This document shows positions 36,660 through 43,374 of a DNA stretch of 64,000 nucleotides, piece by piece. The DNA is taken from positions 62,001 through 126,000 of the forward strand of contig PLMN01000025.1 of assembly GCA_003141555.1 (NCBI GenBank), written 5' to 3'. The notes below the pieces were generated by a model that saw nothing but the letters and a program-made list of their open reading frames with translations, was not told where the DNA came from and did not search any database. How positions within the stretch are numbered: position 1 is the first letter of the stretch; each line of letters opens with the position of its first letter. The stretch is from Candidatus Aminicenantota bacterium. GTDB lineage: Bacteria; Acidobacteriota; Aminicenantia; Aminicenantales; UBA4085. Position numbers and translations under genes: made by a program.

Positions 36660-37496
36660 GTGAGAACAACCGGCCCCCAAAAAGTCGTCCTGGCCAAGAA
36701 CAGCGGCTTTTGTTTCGGCGTCAAACGAGCCGTGGACTTGGCTCTCCGGACCCAAGATCGCGTCTTCACCTTGGGGCCCCTGATTCACAATCCTCAAGTC
36801 ATCGCCTATCTGGAAAGGAAAGGCATCCGGGCCATCGAGTCCCTCGATCGGATCAAGGACGGGAAGCTCATCATCCGGGCCCACGGCATCCCGAGATCCG
36901 TCATCGCCGAGGCGGAGAGGAAAGGCCTGGCCGTGATCGATGCGACGTGCCCGTTCGTGAGGAAGGTGCAGCGGACCGCGGAATCGTTGAGCCGGCAGGG
37001 ATATCAGGTCGTCATTTTCGGCGAGGCCAACCATCCCGAAGTCGTCGGGATCGCCGATCGGGTCAAGAACCCGATCATCGTTGAAACGGCCGGCCACGTC
37101 CGAGCCCTCGGCCGGTTCGACAAGATCGGCGTCGTGGCCCAAACCACGCAATCCGTGGAGAGCTACAAGGCCATAGTCCGGGAATTGAAGAAGCACGCGA
37201 AGAGTGTCAAAGCGGCCGATACCATCTGCAACGCCACGAAAAGGAATCAAGACGCGGCCACGTCCTTGGCCAAGAATGTCGACCTGATGATCGTGGTGGG
37301 CGGGCACAACAGCGGCAATACCCGCCGGCTCGCGAGCCTCTGCTCGAAGATCGTCACGACCAAGCATATCGAGATCGCCGGGGAGCTCAAGCCCTCCTGG
37401 TTCCGGCGCGCGGCGATCGTCGGCGTCGCCGGAGGCGCGTCCACTCCCGATTGGATCCTCCGGGACGTCATCGAGAGCATCGAACATGAATTTTGA
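36660..37496 (+). CDS. ispH: 4-hydroxy-3-methylbut-2-enyl diphosphate reductase
   Basis: 278 aa with a GTG start. The three cluster cysteines are in KNSGFCFGVKRAV, DATCPFVRKVQ and DTICNATKRNQ. The substrate motifs RAHGIP, TTQSVE, GGHNSGNT and AGASTPDW-like GGASTPDWIL are intact. IspH makes IPP and DMAPP in the last step of the MEP pathway. The next gene, a prenyl diphosphate synthase, overlaps it by 11 nt, so the two are coupled: precursor formation and chain elongation. It opens the ether-lipid region. Confidence 0.96.
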   Translation: MRTTGPQKVVLAKNSGFCFGVKRAVDLALRTQDRVFTLGPLIHNPQVIAYLERKGIRAIESLDRIKDGKLIIRAHGIPRSVIAEAERKGLAVIDATCPFVRKVQRTAESLSRQGYQVVIFGEANHPEVVGIADRVKNPIIVETAGHVRALGRFDKIGVVAQTTQSVESYKAIVRELKKHAKSVKAADTICNATKRNQDAATSLAKNVDLMIVVGGHNSGNTRRLASLCSKIVTTKHIEIAGELKPSWFRRAAIVGVAGGASTPDWILRDVIESIEHEF

Positions 37497-38565
37497 AAAG
37501 AGCTTGAGCGCGTACCGGGCGATCATCGATTCCAGGATCGCGGACCTTTTTGACGAAAAGATCCTCGCCTCCCGGGATTTCATCCGGTTCAGCTATGCCC
37601 GCCTCAAGGATTTCGTCCTCCGGGGAGGTAAAAGGCTGAGGCCCGTCATGACGATCATGGCCTTCAAGGCCGTGAGCGACCGCCCCGAGGAGGAGATCTT
37701 GCTGCCGGCCGTCGGAATCGAGCTCTTCCACAACTCGTCTCTGATCCACGACGATATCATGGATGAGGACAGCCGGAGGCGGGGACGGCTCAGCATGCAC
37801 ACGCGCTTCGAGCGCTTTTTTTTGAAGGGCCACGCCGACCGGGAAGATGCCGGACGGATGTTCCAAAAAATGTCCGAGCGATTCGGCGTTTCGATCGCCA
37901 TCTTGATGGGAGACATCCTCTACGCGATGACCGAAGGCTGCCTCATCGATTCGCCCTTCGCCGCGGGAAGGATCCGCCGGGCTATGGAGGTTCTCCATCG
38001 CGCGTACCGGGAGATCAGCGAAGGCCAGATGCTGGACATCCTGTCGGAGCTGGATGGCGACCTCGCCGAGGGCGATGTCCTGCGCCTGATCGAATTGAAG
38101 ACGGCCCGACTGTTCGCGGCCGCGATTCAAATCGGGGCCATCCTGGGCGGCGCGCCCGTGCCCACGCGGAACGCCCTGTCCGCCTACGCCCTCGACCTCG
38201 GGATGGCCTTCCAGTTGCAGGACGACCTCCTCGACATCGGCCCCGGGCGCAAAGGACGCATGTATGGCTCCGATCTCCGGCGGGGGAAATCCACGTTATT
38301 GACGTTGAAAGCGCTCGAGACGGCAAGTCCCGGGCAGGCCCGGATCCTTCGTTCAGCCCTCGGCAACGGCCGGGCCGATCGGGGAACGATCGAAGCCGCC
38401 GTCGGCGTCCTTCATGCCACGGGCGCCGTCGATTGCGTGAAAAAGCTGGCGGTCCAAAAGCTCGGCGAAGGACAGGCCCATCTCCGGGACCAGGCGCTCT
38501 CGCCGGAAGCGGGCAAATTTTTCGACGGTCTCGCCGATTTCATGGCCCGGCGACGGATGCCCTGA
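37486..38565 (+). CDS. Polyprenyl (geranylgeranyl-type) diphosphate synthase
   Basis: 359 aa. First aspartate motif DDIMDED near 87 (HDDIMDEDSRRRG), upstream GGKRLRP and second motif DDLLD near 245 (FQLQDDLLDIGPG) are intact, as is GKSTLLTLKAL. The DDIMD form is shared with archaeal geranylgeranyl diphosphate synthases. About 20 extra residues sit after the first motif (FERFFLKGHADREDAG). Ser is five residues before the first Asp, where a Phe limits product length in some archaeal enzymes, so a product longer than C20 cannot be excluded. It should feed the two prenyltransferases encoded just downstream. Confidence 0.9.
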   Translation: MNFEKSLSAYRAIIDSRIADLFDEKILASRDFIRFSYARLKDFVLRGGKRLRPVMTIMAFKAVSDRPEEEILLPAVGIELFHNSSLIHDDIMDEDSRRRGRLSMHTRFERFFLKGHADREDAGRMFQKMSERFGVSIAILMGDILYAMTEGCLIDSPFAAGRIRRAMEVLHRAYREISEGQMLDILSELDGDLAEGDVLRLIELKTARLFAAAIQIGAILGGAPVPTRNALSAYALDLGMAFQLQDDLLDIGPGRKGRMYGSDLRRGKSTLLTLKALETASPGQARILRSALGNGRADRGTIEAAVGVLHATGAVDCVKKLAVQKLGEGQAHLRDQALSPEAGKFFDGLADFMARRRMP

Positions 38566-38633: not shown

Positions 38634-39452
38634 TCACCAGGATCCCGCGATGAACGCCAGCAAAACGACGAGCGTCGCCGCCTTGACCACCTTCTGCGCC
38701 TTCCCGGGCTGCAGGAATAACGACGTCCCGAGGGCCGCCGTCGCGAGCAGGATCAGCGCCAGGTAAGGACCATCCATCGGCCGGACGGCGACAGGGAGGA
38801 AGATCGCGAGGACGGCCGGGAGGACGCAGAGACCCGCGACGGTCCGGGCGCGCTTGACGCCCCATCGGATCGGCAGGGTCGAGGCTCCCGAGCGGCGGTC
38901 CCCCTCGAGATCCTCGATGTCCTTCAGGATCTCCCTCGTCACCATGATGAAGAACGCGCTCGCGGCTAGGACGACCACGTGGAGATCGATCCGGCCAAGA
39001 ATCGCCCCCGCGAAAAGGAAGACCGAGGACGTCATCCAGGCGACGAGGAGATTGCCGAAGAGATGCATCGCCTTGGAATACCGGGCGTAGACGATCAGGA
39101 GACACGTATTGAGGACGGCCAGGGCCAGGGCCCCGGCGTTCAGGAAGGCGCTCAAGCCGAGGCCGCCGCAAAAGAGAAAGGCCGCAAAAATCAGGGCCCT
39201 GTGCGGCGCGACCCGTCCCGAGGGGATGGGCCGGTGGGGCTTATTGACCACGTCAATCTCCCGGTCGAAATAATCGTTGAGGGAGTTCCCTCCGCTCAGG
39301 ATCAGGAACGCGGCCGCGGCCCCGAAGAGGACCGCCCGGCCGGGCCCAAACGAGCGCGTCACCGAGTAGGACGTGACCAGGATCGAAACGACGGCGATCA
39401 GACCGTTGGGGACCCTCATCAGCCCGAGATATCCCCCCAAAGTCAGGAGCAT
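38634..39452 (-). CDS. UbiA-family prenyltransferase, probable digeranylgeranylglyceryl phosphate synthase
   Basis: 272 aa, about eight to nine membrane helices. The first Asp-rich motif is in NSLNDYFDREIDVVNKPHRP followed by IPSGRV, the form typical of archaeal digeranylgeranylglyceryl phosphate synthases. The second is KDIEDLEGDRRSGASTLP. This enzyme adds the second prenyl chain by an ether bond to the product of the neighbouring GGGP synthase, which ends 5 bp upstream in the same operon. Menaquinone and heme UbiA homologues are the alternative, but the context argues against them. Inner membrane. Confidence 0.85.
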   Translation of the reverse strand: MLLTLGGYLGLMRVPNGLIAVVSILVTSYSVTRSFGPGRAVLFGAAAAFLILSGGNSLNDYFDREIDVVNKPHRPIPSGRVAPHRALIFAAFLFCGGLGLSAFLNAGALALAVLNTCLLIVYARYSKAMHLFGNLLVAWMTSSVFLFAGAILGRIDLHVVVLAASAFFIMVTREILKDIEDLEGDRRSGASTLPIRWGVKRARTVAGLCVLPAVLAIFLPVAVRPMDGPYLALILLATAALGTSLFLQPGKAQKVVKAATLVVLLAFIAGSW

Positions 39453-39457
39453 GGGCC

Positions 39458-40210
39458 TCAGGATCGCGCGGCGGGCCGGGCGCCGTGGATGGCCTCGATG
39501 ATCGATCGGAGCTTCGCGATATTTCGTTCGGCGATGGTTCCCGTGACGATGATGTCGGCGCCGGCCTCCGCAATCCTCCGGGCCTGTCCGGCCGTCCGTA
39601 TGCCGCCGCCGACGATCAGGGGTCCATGGATCTTAGCCCGGACCGCCCGGATCATCGGCAGGGGAACGGGCCTATCGGCGCCGGAGCCGGCTTCGAGGTA
39701 CGTACAGCCCATGCCGAAATAGCGGGCGGCCAGGGCGTAGCTGGCCGCCTTCGCGGCATCGCGGGGCCCGATCTTGTCCAGCTTGACCCGCCTCTCGATC
39801 GTCGTCGGCCGCCGGCTCGTCCCGATGACGATATAGGCCATCGAGATGGGACACAGCTTTATCCGCTCGATGAACGGAGCCGCGCGGACCTGTTCCCGGA
39901 TCAGGACCCGCGGGTCGTCGGCGTTGAGAAGCGACATAAAAAAAATGGCGTCGGCCCGCTTCGAAACGGCGGCCGCCGAATTCGGGAACAGGATGACGGG
40001 GAGTTTGACGGCGTTCTTGAGGGTCTTGACCGTCGCCTCGAGCAGCCGGGGGCTGAAGGAGCTCGAGCCGCCGACCAGGGCGGCATCGGTCCCGAACCGC
40101 TCGCTCATCTTCGCTCGGCGGGCCAGCTCGTCCAGGGTCTGCCGGTCCGGATCGAACAGGGTGAAGTGGAGGACGCGGCCCGTCCTCGTCAGCAGGTCAT
40201 CGATCAGCAT
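39458..40210 (-). CDS. Geranylgeranylglyceryl phosphate synthase (GGGPS/PcrB family)
   Basis: 250 aa. TIM-barrel motifs match the family: FTLFDPDRQ near 17, ALVGGSSSF, LPVILFPNSAAAVSKRADA, FFMSLLNADDP, ISMAYIVIG, TYLEAGSGADRPVP, PLIVGGGIRT and GADIIVTGTI. It forms the first ether bond between glycerol 1-phosphate and a C20 prenyl diphosphate, the committed step of archaeal lipids. Bacillus PcrB uses longer chains. The ATG at 40210 follows GAGAGGGA and overlaps the end of tes by 14 nt, so it is translationally coupled. Glycerol-1-phosphate dehydrogenase is not in the window. Confidence 0.9.
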   Translation of the reverse strand: MLIDDLLTRTGRVLHFTLFDPDRQTLDELARRAKMSERFGTDAALVGGSSSFSPRLLEATVKTLKNAVKLPVILFPNSAAAVSKRADAIFFMSLLNADDPRVLIREQVRAAPFIERIKLCPISMAYIVIGTSRRPTTIERRVKLDKIGPRDAAKAASYALAARYFGMGCTYLEAGSGADRPVPLPMIRAVRAKIHGPLIVGGGIRTAGQARRIAEAGADIIVTGTIAERNIAKLRSIIEAIHGARPAARS

Positions 40211-41717
40211 GGTCCCTCTCGCGGATCGACGCCGGCGGCCGCCCATAGGCCGTCTCGATCTCCTGGCGATATCCCAGATTGTTGTAAGAGCAGAACGGGA
40301 TGAGCCGGCCGTCGGGCGTCGCGTAGTGGATGACGCAGCGCCGGACCCGTTCCCTATCGAAATTGTGGGCGTCCATGAAATGCATGCAGGAGAACAGGAT
40401 CACCCGGGAATGAAGATCGCTCAGGGCTTCGAACGTGCCCTTGCCCAGGAGGGGCCGAAGATGCTTCCTCAGCAGGCCCGGTTTGACGTGCCGGAGCGAG
40501 GCCATCAGCCGCAGCCTCGCCGCGCCGCGAGACCCCCGGGAAGCCTCGCGCTGGACCGCCGCCATGGAACGCAGGAATTTGTCGATCTTGACGAAGCGGC
40601 CGATCGGGACCAGCGTCCCCCGGTCGGGAACGAGATACGTCGCCGCGCCGCAATGGGGATGGGCCGTGAACTCGGGATGCCGCTCGTTCATCAACGCCCC
40701 GACGGCCCGGGCGATCGGGACTTCGCAGGGCACGGGATAGAAATCCGCGGCCCGGATCCGGCCGCCCGTCTGCCGTTCGACGCAGGCCAGGAAGTCGGGG
40801 ATCGTCAGGCGCCGCGCGGCGAGGTCGTCGTCCGGGACGCGGCCGGCGAACGACAGCGGCTGGACGTTGACGCAGCGGACGACGTCGAAGTTGTCCGCCG
40901 CGAATTTAAGGATGTCTCCCAGCTGGCCGGTGTTGACTCCTTTGATCAAGGTGACGACGAGTACGACGCTCCGGAGTCCCGCCCGGCGGCAATTTTCGAT
41001 GGCCGCCCGCTTCACGGCCGCGAGATCCCGGCCCCGGATGAACGTCGAGACGTCGCTCGCCAGCCCGTCGAACTGGAGGTAGAGGGTGTCCATCCCGGCG
41101 GCCATGAGCGTCCGGACATAATCGACGGACTCCGCCGGCCTGATCCCATTGGTATTGACCTGGATGTTGAGAAAGCCGGCCCGCTTGGCCATCCCGACGA
41201 GCTCCGGGAGGTCCTCCCGGAGCGTCGGCTCGCCGCCGGAAAACTGGACGGCCGGGGCCGGGACGGGCCGGTTGCTCCTCAAATTGGCGAGCATGGAGGC
41301 GACTTGCTCGCGGGTCGGCTCATAGACGGACCCGGTCGCGGCGGCATTGGCGAAACAGACGGGGCATTTGAGGTTGCATCGGTTCGTGACGTCGACGATC
41401 CCCAAATCCGTCTCGGACAGGTGGCCCGGGCAGAGGCCGCAATCGAGAGGGCATCCCCGGCGTTCGGCGGTCCGGGGATTCTCCACCCCTCGGCCGTCGG
41501 CCTGGAAGCGCCCGGCCCTCTCGAAGGATTCCTCGTCGGACCAATAGACGTCCCGGAACGTCCCATGGACCGGGCATTCTTTCTCGATGAAGATCCGGCC
41601 CCGTTCGGAGAAGATCCGGGCCTCGACCCTCCGCCGGCATTCCGGGCAGATGGAGGACGTGATCCTTATCGATTTGCCGTCGTCCGACATTCCATGATCC
41701 TTCGCAACGGTCCCCAT
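40197..41717 (-). CDS. tes: Tes-type radical SAM tetraether lipid (GDGT) synthase
   Basis: 506 aa. The layout matches archaeal Tes: an N-terminal cysteine-rich ribbon (SSICPECRRRV, KECPVHG, DVYWSDEE), a [4Fe-4S] motif in GCPLDCGLCPGH, then the radical SAM motif CNLKCPVC with AAATGSVYEPT and FSGGEPTLREDLP. At the C-terminus FSCMHFMDAHNFDRERVRRC and PDGRLIPFCSYN give the last auxiliary cluster cysteines. Tes joins isoprenoid chain ends head to head, making macrocyclic archaeol and tetraethers. The start at 41717 follows GGAGG. It heads the operon tes-GGGPS-UbiA. Confidence 0.9.
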   Translation of the reverse strand: MGTVAKDHGMSDDGKSIRITSSICPECRRRVEARIFSERGRIFIEKECPVHGTFRDVYWSDEESFERAGRFQADGRGVENPRTAERRGCPLDCGLCPGHLSETDLGIVDVTNRCNLKCPVCFANAAATGSVYEPTREQVASMLANLRSNRPVPAPAVQFSGGEPTLREDLPELVGMAKRAGFLNIQVNTNGIRPAESVDYVRTLMAAGMDTLYLQFDGLASDVSTFIRGRDLAAVKRAAIENCRRAGLRSVVLVVTLIKGVNTGQLGDILKFAADNFDVVRCVNVQPLSFAGRVPDDDLAARRLTIPDFLACVERQTGGRIRAADFYPVPCEVPIARAVGALMNERHPEFTAHPHCGAATYLVPDRGTLVPIGRFVKIDKFLRSMAAVQREASRGSRGAARLRLMASLRHVKPGLLRKHLRPLLGKGTFEALSDLHSRVILFSCMHFMDAHNFDRERVRRCVIHYATPDGRLIPFCSYNNLGYRQEIETAYGRPPASIRERDHADR

Positions 41718-41734
41718 CGGACCTCCGTTTTTTT

Positions 41735-41764
41735 AGTCTACTATGGGTTCCTCCCGGCCATCAA
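41735..41764 (-). promoter_or_regulatory. Candidate promoter of the tes-GGGPS-UbiA operon
   Basis: On the minus strand: TTGATG (41764-41759), 18-bp spacer, TAGACT (41740-41735). Both boxes are imperfect. Leader of about 11 nt with GGAGG. Confidence 0.4.
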
Positions 41765-41804
41765 GCGGAAAGCCACGGCCTCGACCGGGAACGCCGCCGG
41801 CCAC

Positions 41805-41833
41805 TTGATAAGGTGTCGCGGCTCTGCTATAGT
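41805..41833 (+). promoter_or_regulatory. Sigma70-type promoter of the ferredoxin-GGR gene
   Basis: TTGATA (41805-41810), 17-bp spacer, TATAGT (41828-41833). Leader of about 95 nt to the GTG at 41935. Confidence 0.7.
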
Positions 41834-41934
41834 CCGGGCACATCGCACATCCCCGGGGGGTGCGGTCCCGCGAACGCCAAGATCACTCTTTCTGCATGAA
41901 ACCGGCGGAGCCCGCATGAGGCCAAGGAGGCAAG

Positions 41935-43374
41935 GTGCACAGCCTCAAGGAGACGGGATTGAAAGAACGACTCAGGATCGACCGGGGAAGCTGCTGCTAT
42001 TGCGGAGCCTGCGTTGGGATCTGCCCGGCCGACGCCCTCGTCCTGAGGGAGACCGAGCTTCGCCTCGACGAGGAGAAATGCACGCTCTGCCGCTTCTGCA
42101 TCGTGTTCTGTCCCGTCGAGGCCCTTTCCGTCGCTCCGGAGCAGTCCCTCCCACCCGCCCGGGAAGCGGACCTCCTGCGGGCCGACGTCGTCGTCGTCGG
42201 GGCCGGACCGGCCGGAAGCATCTGCGCCAGGGACCTGGCCCGATCCGGGGCCAAGGTCCTGGTCGTCGACAAGAAGCAGGAAATCGGAACCCCGAAACGG
42301 TGCGCCGAGGCGGTCGAGCCCGACACCTTCGAGCTCGCGGGAATCGAACCCCATCCCCTCTGGCTGACGAACCGCATTCGGACGGCGGTCCTCTACGCCC
42401 CCAACGGAACCCCGGTCAGCTTCGGAGCCCGATCTTTGAAGGAGAACGGATTCATCATCGAGCGGAAGATCTTCGAAAAACATCTGGCCAAGGATGCCAT
42501 TCTGGCCGGGGCCCAGTATATGCTCAAGACCACGGCCGTAGACGTGATCAAGGACGCCGGCCGGGTCAAGGGCGTGGTCGTCGAACAGATGGGCGGGCGG
42601 AAGAAGATCATGGCCGAGATCGTCATCGCCGCGGACGGGGTGGATTCCATGATCGCCAAGAGGGCCGGCTTGAAGACCGTCAACCGGCTGAAGGATTTCA
42701 TGAGCTGTTTCCAATACGAGATGGCCGGAGTCCGCCACGCGGATGAGCAATCGATTTATCTGTACTACGGGAACGCCGTCGCCCCGGGAGGATATGTCTG
42801 GCTGTTCCCCAAGGGAAACACCCTGGCCAATGTCGGCGTCGGGATCAAGCCGTTGAAGAAAGAGGGCAAAACCCCCAAGGCCTATCTGGATGAATTCATC
42901 GCCGGGCATCCCCGGATCTTCGAGAACGCCTCGGCCGTCGAATTCAACGGGGGCGGCGTGCCCGTTCATCGAACGGCCGAGACGCTCGTGGCGGACGGCC
43001 TGATGGTCATCGGGGACGCCGCCCAGCTCGTCAATCCCATCACGGGAGGAGGCATCCGGCTGGCCATGATCTCGGGCCGATTGGCCGCCGACGTCGCGGC
43101 CCGGGCGCTCCGAAAAGGGGATGTCGGCCGAAGATCCCTCTCCGATTACCAGAGGCGATGGGACGCCGGGCACGGCAAGCTGATGGACAAGATGCTCAAG
43201 CTGCAGCGCTTCACCGATCGGCTCGCCGATGACGAGCTCAACCGGCTCGCCGAGATCCTGACGGGCCCTGTCCTGGAAGACCTGGCCGAGGGCCGATTCC
43301 TCGGATTCCTCAAGCTCCTGATGAAAAAAGCGCCCGCTCTCGCGCCGTTCGCGGTGAAATACCTAAGATCCTGA
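41935..43374 (+). CDS. Geranylgeranyl reductase fused to an N-terminal 2x[4Fe-4S] ferredoxin
   Basis: 479 aa, GTG start after AAGGAGG. Residues 14-70 are a ferredoxin with two clusters (CCYCGACVGICP and CTLCRFCIVFCP). The flavoprotein follows: FAD site VVVVGAGPAGSICARDLA near 87, PKRCAEAVEP, AADGVDS and GDAAQLVNPITGGGIRLAM, all typical of geranylgeranyl reductases. These enzymes saturate the double bonds of archaeal lipid chains. In Methanosarcina the reductase works with a separate ferredoxin; here the donor is built in. It is divergent from tes, across a 217-bp promoter region. Confidence 0.92.
   Translation: MHSLKETGLKERLRIDRGSCCYCGACVGICPADALVLRETELRLDEEKCTLCRFCIVFCPVEALSVAPEQSLPPAREADLLRADVVVVGAGPAGSICARDLARSGAKVLVVDKKQEIGTPKRCAEAVEPDTFELAGIEPHPLWLTNRIRTAVLYAPNGTPVSFGARSLKENGFIIERKIFEKHLAKDAILAGAQYMLKTTAVDVIKDAGRVKGVVVEQMGGRKKIMAEIVIAADGVDSMIAKRAGLKTVNRLKDFMSCFQYEMAGVRHADEQSIYLYYGNAVAPGGYVWLFPKGNTLANVGVGIKPLKKEGKTPKAYLDEFIAGHPRIFENASAVEFNGGGVPVHRTAETLVADGLMVIGDAAQLVNPITGGGIRLAMISGRLAADVAARALRKGDVGRRSLSDYQRRWDAGHGKLMDKMLKLQRFTDRLADDELNRLAEILTGPVLEDLAEGRFLGFLKLLMKKAPALAPFAVKYLRS

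Follow-up and report, generated by a model that had tools for sequence, protein, structure and literature searches.

An archaeal-type tetraether synthase gene coupled to GGGP synthase in a probable transferred ether-lipid gene cluster of a likely acidobacterium

A gene encoding an archaeal-type tetraether synthase (Tes) overlaps that of GGGP synthase (GGGPS) within a compact cluster of archaeal lipid genes whose host is probably an uncultured acidobacterium. The analysis shows the content, order and coupling of these genes, their conservation in a second genome (G264), an archaeal origin for each of the four core genes, and the fold and metal ligands of Tes. We consider it likely that the cluster represents a transferred archaeal isoprenoid ether-lipid pathway leading to isoprenoid GDGTs and/or macrocyclic archaeol, with no lipid observed to date. 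A stronger proposition is that isoprenoid GDGTs are made by a natural bacterium whose self-contained cluster was transferred from archaea, and that they share its membrane with its own phospholipids although no G1P dehydrogenase can be recognised; we judge the chances of this to be even. Palaeoclimate proxies draw on isoprenoid GDGTs, which also serve as biomarkers of archaea; if this proposition is true, these lipids are not exclusively archaeal. Zeng et al. (PMC8941075) stated in 2022 that GDGT production had not been demonstrated in any bacterium, and the capacity for archaeal lipids through the membrane-spanning step has not yet been shown in a natural bacterium, the lipid product being unobserved here too. 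The clustered archaeal Tes-GGGPS-DGGGPS-GGR set makes bacterial GDGT production directly testable.

The tes ORF spans 40197-41717 on the minus strand of the window, by which we mean the whole 64-kb stretch of DNA analysed, and encodes a radical SAM protein of 506 aa assigned as tetraether / macrocyclic archaeol synthase. In a profile search it scored 606.6 bits (E 3e-182) against NF045702, the NCBIfam model for 'tetraether lipid synthase Tes' (curated cut-off 450 bits), and its best solved-structure match was the Methanocaldococcus jannaschii GDGT-MAS (PDB 7TOL/7TOM; E 5e-148), confirming that the ORF is real and belongs to the Tes family, as the initial annotation had proposed. The alignment showed a full complement of the metal ligands reported for the M. 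jannaschii protein, namely the rubredoxin-type set C24-C27-C48-H51, the N-terminal Fe4S4 set C89-C93-C96-H99, the radical SAM set C114-C118-C121, and the C-terminal Fe4S4 set C356 (HPHC), M445, C461 and C476. The annotation had described all cysteine sets as intact, which is correct insofar as no ligand is missing, but the cysteine of its CMHF motif (C444) is variable: sequences from Bathyarchaeia, among others, have Ser, Ala or a different residue there. Within the C-terminal part of the Tes alignment, the residues that do not vary are C356, M445, C461 and C476. Tes sequences forming a separate clade from other genomes of the phylum also keep all ligands, and the N-terminal cluster ligands are missing only in more distant TrsS-like paralogues. 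Hence, the ligands alone do not set the window Tes apart, and the cysteine sets were rejected as proof of substrate. At two further loci in the phylum (L179 and L180, from G265 and G073), an over-cut-off Tes lies near a TrsS-like paralogue without N-terminal cluster ligands.

An AlphaFold model of the window Tes (mean pLDDT 87) superposed end to end on 7TOL, with TM scores of 0.90/0.92 over 492 columns. The SAM-binding residues named for the M. jannaschii enzyme (PMC9433317), Phe106, Arg210, Gln268, Ser271 and Arg275, correspond to F122, R228, Q286, S289 and R293, while Tyr459 and Met439 correspond to Y465 and M445. The C-terminal helical segment equals that of Bathyarchaeial Tes in length and resembles it in hydrophobicity; a shorter form of 72 residues is common to Tes of the window, G264, Bathyarchaeia and one Nitrososphaeria, the segment of the remaining Tes being 74 to 98 residues long. 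Structure prediction, which had been suggested as a check on the lipid-binding channel, thus agrees with the archaeal enzyme in overall fold and named active-site residues, and only to that level. In the published mechanism, the formation of each C-C bond takes two SAM-derived radicals, and the C-terminal cluster is close by (PMC9433317). Given that the window protein resembles archaeal Tes (MJ0619; 7TOL, 7TOM) in full-length fold, all four metal sites and the named SAM-site residues, this mechanism is available to it, although the activity itself, the coupling of two phytanyl termini, is inferred. Unlike MJ0619, the window gene resides in a bacterium, overlaps GGGPS and clusters with a DGGGPS-like gene.

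The GGGPS gene (39458-40210, minus strand) encodes 250 aa from an ATG at 40210, or 262 aa from an upstream in-frame ATG at 40246. It exceeded the cut-offs of NF003198 and TIGR01769 (214 bits versus 161.6 for the latter), matched PF01884, and had archaeal GGGPS 6NKE as its best PDB match (E 2e-53). Its start codon at 40210 lies within the final tes codons, giving a 14-nt overlap (40197-40210, minus strand), and is preceded by a Shine-Dalgarno-like GAGAGGG at 40220-40214. The corresponding overlap in G264 is 26 nt, its own rather than the same one. These features confirm the translational coupling suggested by the initial annotation. Only 5 nt downstream of GGGPS begins a UbiA-family prenyltransferase gene (38634-39452, minus strand; PF01040), predicted to encode DGGGP synthase; its best PDB match was archaeal DGGGPS 6M31 (E 5e-39) and its top profile hit NF009521, albeit under the equivalog cut-off (243.6 of 296 bits). 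Divergent from tes is a gene (41935-43374, plus strand) in which an N-terminal ferredoxin with two 4Fe-4S motifs (Fer4) is fused to geranylgeranyl reductase (GGR; TIGR02032 over cut-off, PF22578 GGR_cat), with the digeranylgeranylglycerophospholipid reductase 3OZ2 as best PDB match (E 2e-64). The intervening region (41718-41934) holds one sigma-70-like match, TTGATA-17-TATAGT (41805-41833, plus strand), identified by consensus only. For each of the four core proteins, then, the best solved match was an archaeal lipid enzyme.

Convergent on the Tes-GGGPS-UbiA genes are two further genes on the plus strand (36660-38565) that overlap by 11 nt, encoding IspH of the MEP pathway (36660-37496; TIGR00216 over cut-off) and a polyprenyl diphosphate synthetase (37486-38565; PF00348), the predicted source of prenyl chains. 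The best PDB match of the latter was 5JFQ, named GGPP synthetase. Where 5JFQ has Phe at position -5 of the first Asp-rich motif, the window enzyme has Ser, so chain lengths other than C20, perhaps greater, are possible. This IspH is the sole match in the window genome and is only 32 to 40% identical to the IspH of order-mates; hence, it may have been acquired together with the cluster or have displaced the native gene.

The window genome (3.79 Mb, 97.4% complete, 2.3% contamination) carries PlsY, and bacterial genes within the window include GroEL/GroES-like, GWxTD-domain and MacA/MacB-like ORFs. We infer, from the distribution of Tes and from neighbours among other cues, that the phylum is probably Acidobacteriota and the class probably Aminicenantia. 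We found no inverted repeats and only one chance-like direct family when looking near the cluster for repeats that would flag a mobile element. An assembly or binning error that placed archaeal DNA in a bacterial genome is a very improbable explanation. Such chimeras do exist, as illustrated by a 'Terriglobia bacterium' contig (L062) in which GC-rich bacterial DNA is joined to an AT-rich, archaeal-like stretch with part of a Tes gene (59% identity to the window Tes); this fragment (1-1305) was considered as a third bacterial case and rejected, being a chimeric contig end with its junction near position 1023. The window cluster, however, lies in the interior of 64 kb of even GC and GC3, has a GC content like that of its surroundings, and shares its contig with bacterial genes. 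Moreover, an orthologous cluster sits inside a 553-kb contig of G264, a separately assembled genome from the same order but another family. Contamination was rejected on the grounds of this second conserved cluster and the even composition.

In G264, the genes for Tes, GGGPS and UbiA occur in the same order, with GGR adjoining on the opposite strand, and identities to the window proteins are 63, 61, 50 and 54%, respectively. ORFs around PlsY are 50 to 60% identical between the two genomes; thus, the cluster is about as diverged as ordinary genes. Both one old acquisition followed by loss in most of the order and an old transfer between lineages fit these data. Next to GGR in G264 (L127 1392-3694) are genes for a family-2 glycosyltransferase and UDP-galactopyranose mutase, possible head-group genes. 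Across the phylum, Tes exceeded the cut-off in 38 of 396 genomes, yet a clear full-length archaeal-type GGGPS occurred in only two, the window genome (140 bits) and G264 (154 bits), and in both GGGPS touches Tes. None of the other 36 genomes with an over-cut-off Tes had an archaeal-type GGGPS; one genome (G286) gave a weak PcrB-like match of 66 bits, and the remaining GGGPS hits were fragments or near-threshold marginal matches. A scan of 94 genomes of the order returned the same two. That the only clear archaeal-type GGGPS in both samples belong to genomes sharing this cluster makes a binning artefact unlikely. The edge of a contig in G457, another member of the window's family, encodes a divergent Tes (L264, C109:1-1470; 36 to 38% identity) that falls among archaeal Tes on a long branch; no GGGPS was found in that genome.

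Phylogenetic analysis placed the window and G264 Tes as sisters (100/100) beside Bathyarchaeia and inside archaeal Tes (100/99 in the 18-row set), a placement recovered in three tree runs. Other genomes of the phylum contributed 24 Tes-family sequences, four of them TrsS-like paralogues; these 24 formed a separate clade (100/99), and joining the window and G264 Tes with them was rejected (dlnL 177, p-AU 1e-4). The phylogeny proposed as a check in the initial annotation supports its reading and adds a refinement: the most fitting description of the window protein is an archaeal Tes that a bacterium acquired, and not one of the bacterial Tes relatives. In the GGGPS, UbiA and GGR trees, the window and G264 sequences likewise formed pairs (support of at least 100/99) that fell among archaeal ones, with GGGPS nested in archaeal GGGPS and UbiA among archaeal homologues. 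Long-branch rows were left out of the GGGPS tree, where composition bias may affect the placement. Nearest archaea differed between genes, being Bathyarchaeia for Tes, Thermoplasmata for GGGPS and, weakly, Aenigmatarchaeota for UbiA and GGR; a single archaeal donor was therefore not established.

Taken as a pathway, the cluster would operate as follows. IspH and the polyprenyl synthetase would supply prenyl diphosphate, GGGPS would join the prenyl chain to glycerol phosphate, and the UbiA enzyme would add a second chain. The ferredoxin-fused reductase, a fusion that fits the ferredoxin gene cloned with Methanosarcina acetivorans GGR (PMC12042123), would then saturate the chains to give saturated diethers. 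Finally, Tes, using SAM-derived radicals one after the other close to its C-terminal Fe4S4 cluster, would join two terminal methyls to form biphytanyl-type lipids. Since PlsY is kept, a mixed membrane would be expected. The enzymatic activities of this pathway are inferred, as are its chain length, head groups and stereochemistry. Two steps have no recognisable gene: neither G1P dehydrogenase (G1PDH; PF13685) nor CarS (PF01864) had a match in the window genome, and G264, where PF13685 was only sub-threshold, also falls short of a complete pathway defined by these two enzymes. We infer that CdsA-type enzymes and an unknown route stand in for CarS and G1PDH. Counting against the pathway are these two absences, the lack of lipid or enzyme data, the uncertain prenyl chain length, the sub-cut-off score of UbiA and the bacterial phospholipids bound by 7TOL.

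The last point bears on substrate. Expressed in Escherichia coli, the 7TOL enzyme also bound bacterial phospholipids with little head-group selectivity (PMC9433317). An isoprenoid substrate therefore does not follow from Tes alone; for the window protein, it is inferred from gene context and ancestry. Tes might instead couple iso-branched fatty-acyl chains of the branched tetraether or iso-diabolic type, as proposed for bacterial Tes homologues by Zeng et al. (PMC8941075), with the adjacent prenyl-ether genes serving another product, and retention of PlsY by the host accords with such a role. We regard this as unlikely: the clade that the proposal covers is a separate one and excludes the window Tes, and while 36 other Tes genomes lack archaeal-type GGGPS, the tes genes of the window and G264 overlap it. 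With most of the ether-lipid pathway adjacent and kept in G264, and with Tes placed among archaeal enzymes, the neighbourhood indicates isoprenoid substrates, as the initial annotation had argued on less evidence.

Even with isoprenoid substrates, the pathway could stop short of GDGT, yielding mainly macrocyclic archaeol or some other lipid that is mixed or closed within one molecule. The M. jannaschii enzyme yields macrocyclic archaetidylglycerol as well as GDGT (PMC9433317), and how long a chain the prenyl donor carries is uncertain; yet the nearest Tes relatives are those of Bathyarchaeia and no sequence feature favours ring closure within one lipid. We regard this outcome, too, as unlikely. 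We give still less credence to a vestigial or repurposed cluster that makes a minor lipid or quinone-like product without a membrane role. The missing G1PDH and CarS would suit such a fate, but the core genes are full-length with motifs intact, and their divergence between the window genome and G264 is similar to that of genes around PlsY. A transferred pathway for isoprenoid ether lipids thus remains our preferred reading.

Branched GDGTs have been suggested as the product of Tes homologues in Acidobacteriota (Zeng et al. 2022, PMC8941075). These homologues belong to the same family, and apparently the same phylum, as the window Tes, with ligands intact in both, but occupy the separate clade described above, and their genomes lacked archaeal-type GGGPS in our sample. 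GGGPS and DGGGPS are also known from FCB bacteria; in Ca. Cloacimonetes the two genes are neighbours, and the genome encodes polyprenyl synthases and GGR as well (Villanueva et al. 2020, PMC7852524). The same two genes, G1PDH and CarS, are missing there, for which a bacterial CDP-diacylglycerol synthase and an unknown bacterial G1P source were proposed (PMC7852524). The window genome would thus represent a second bacterial group, after Cloacimonetes, with archaeal-lipid genes but no known G1P source. It differs in phylum, and in the window case Tes and GGR are inside the cluster; Tes was undiscovered at the time of that study, and no Tes hits were later found in Cloacimonadota (PMC11868695).

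Like the window bacterium, engineered E. coli (PMC12042123) carried GGPPS, GGGPS, DGGGPS, GGR (with ferredoxin) and tes beside its own phospholipids; unlike the window cluster, it was also given G1PDH and CarS. Its GDGT synthesis was gone within two to three passages (PMC12042123), whereas the window cluster is conserved between two lineages. The window bacterium would offer a natural case of an archaeal-bacterial mixed membrane, which engineered E. coli tolerated poorly at the GDGT step. We found no earlier report of a bacterial cluster of archaeal Tes, GGGPS and DGGGPS in the literature searched, from which subscription papers and preprints were mostly absent.

Pairing of Tes and GGGPS in a bacterium is not unique in kind, as both occur, unlinked, in a member of Neomarinimicrobiota/Fidelibacterota (G497). 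There, an archaeal-like Tes (L069 170-1648) lies beside an aspartate/ornithine carbamoyltransferase gene, and GGGPS (L193 7389-8138) lies on another contig beside a biotin carboxylase gene. Both contigs have uniform low GC and bacterial neighbours, with UbiA and GGR homologues elsewhere. In Aenigmatarchaeota, genes for Tes, polyprenyl synthetase, UbiA, GGGPS and GGR were found close together (L068 3-8602), a possible model of a transferable lipid cluster.
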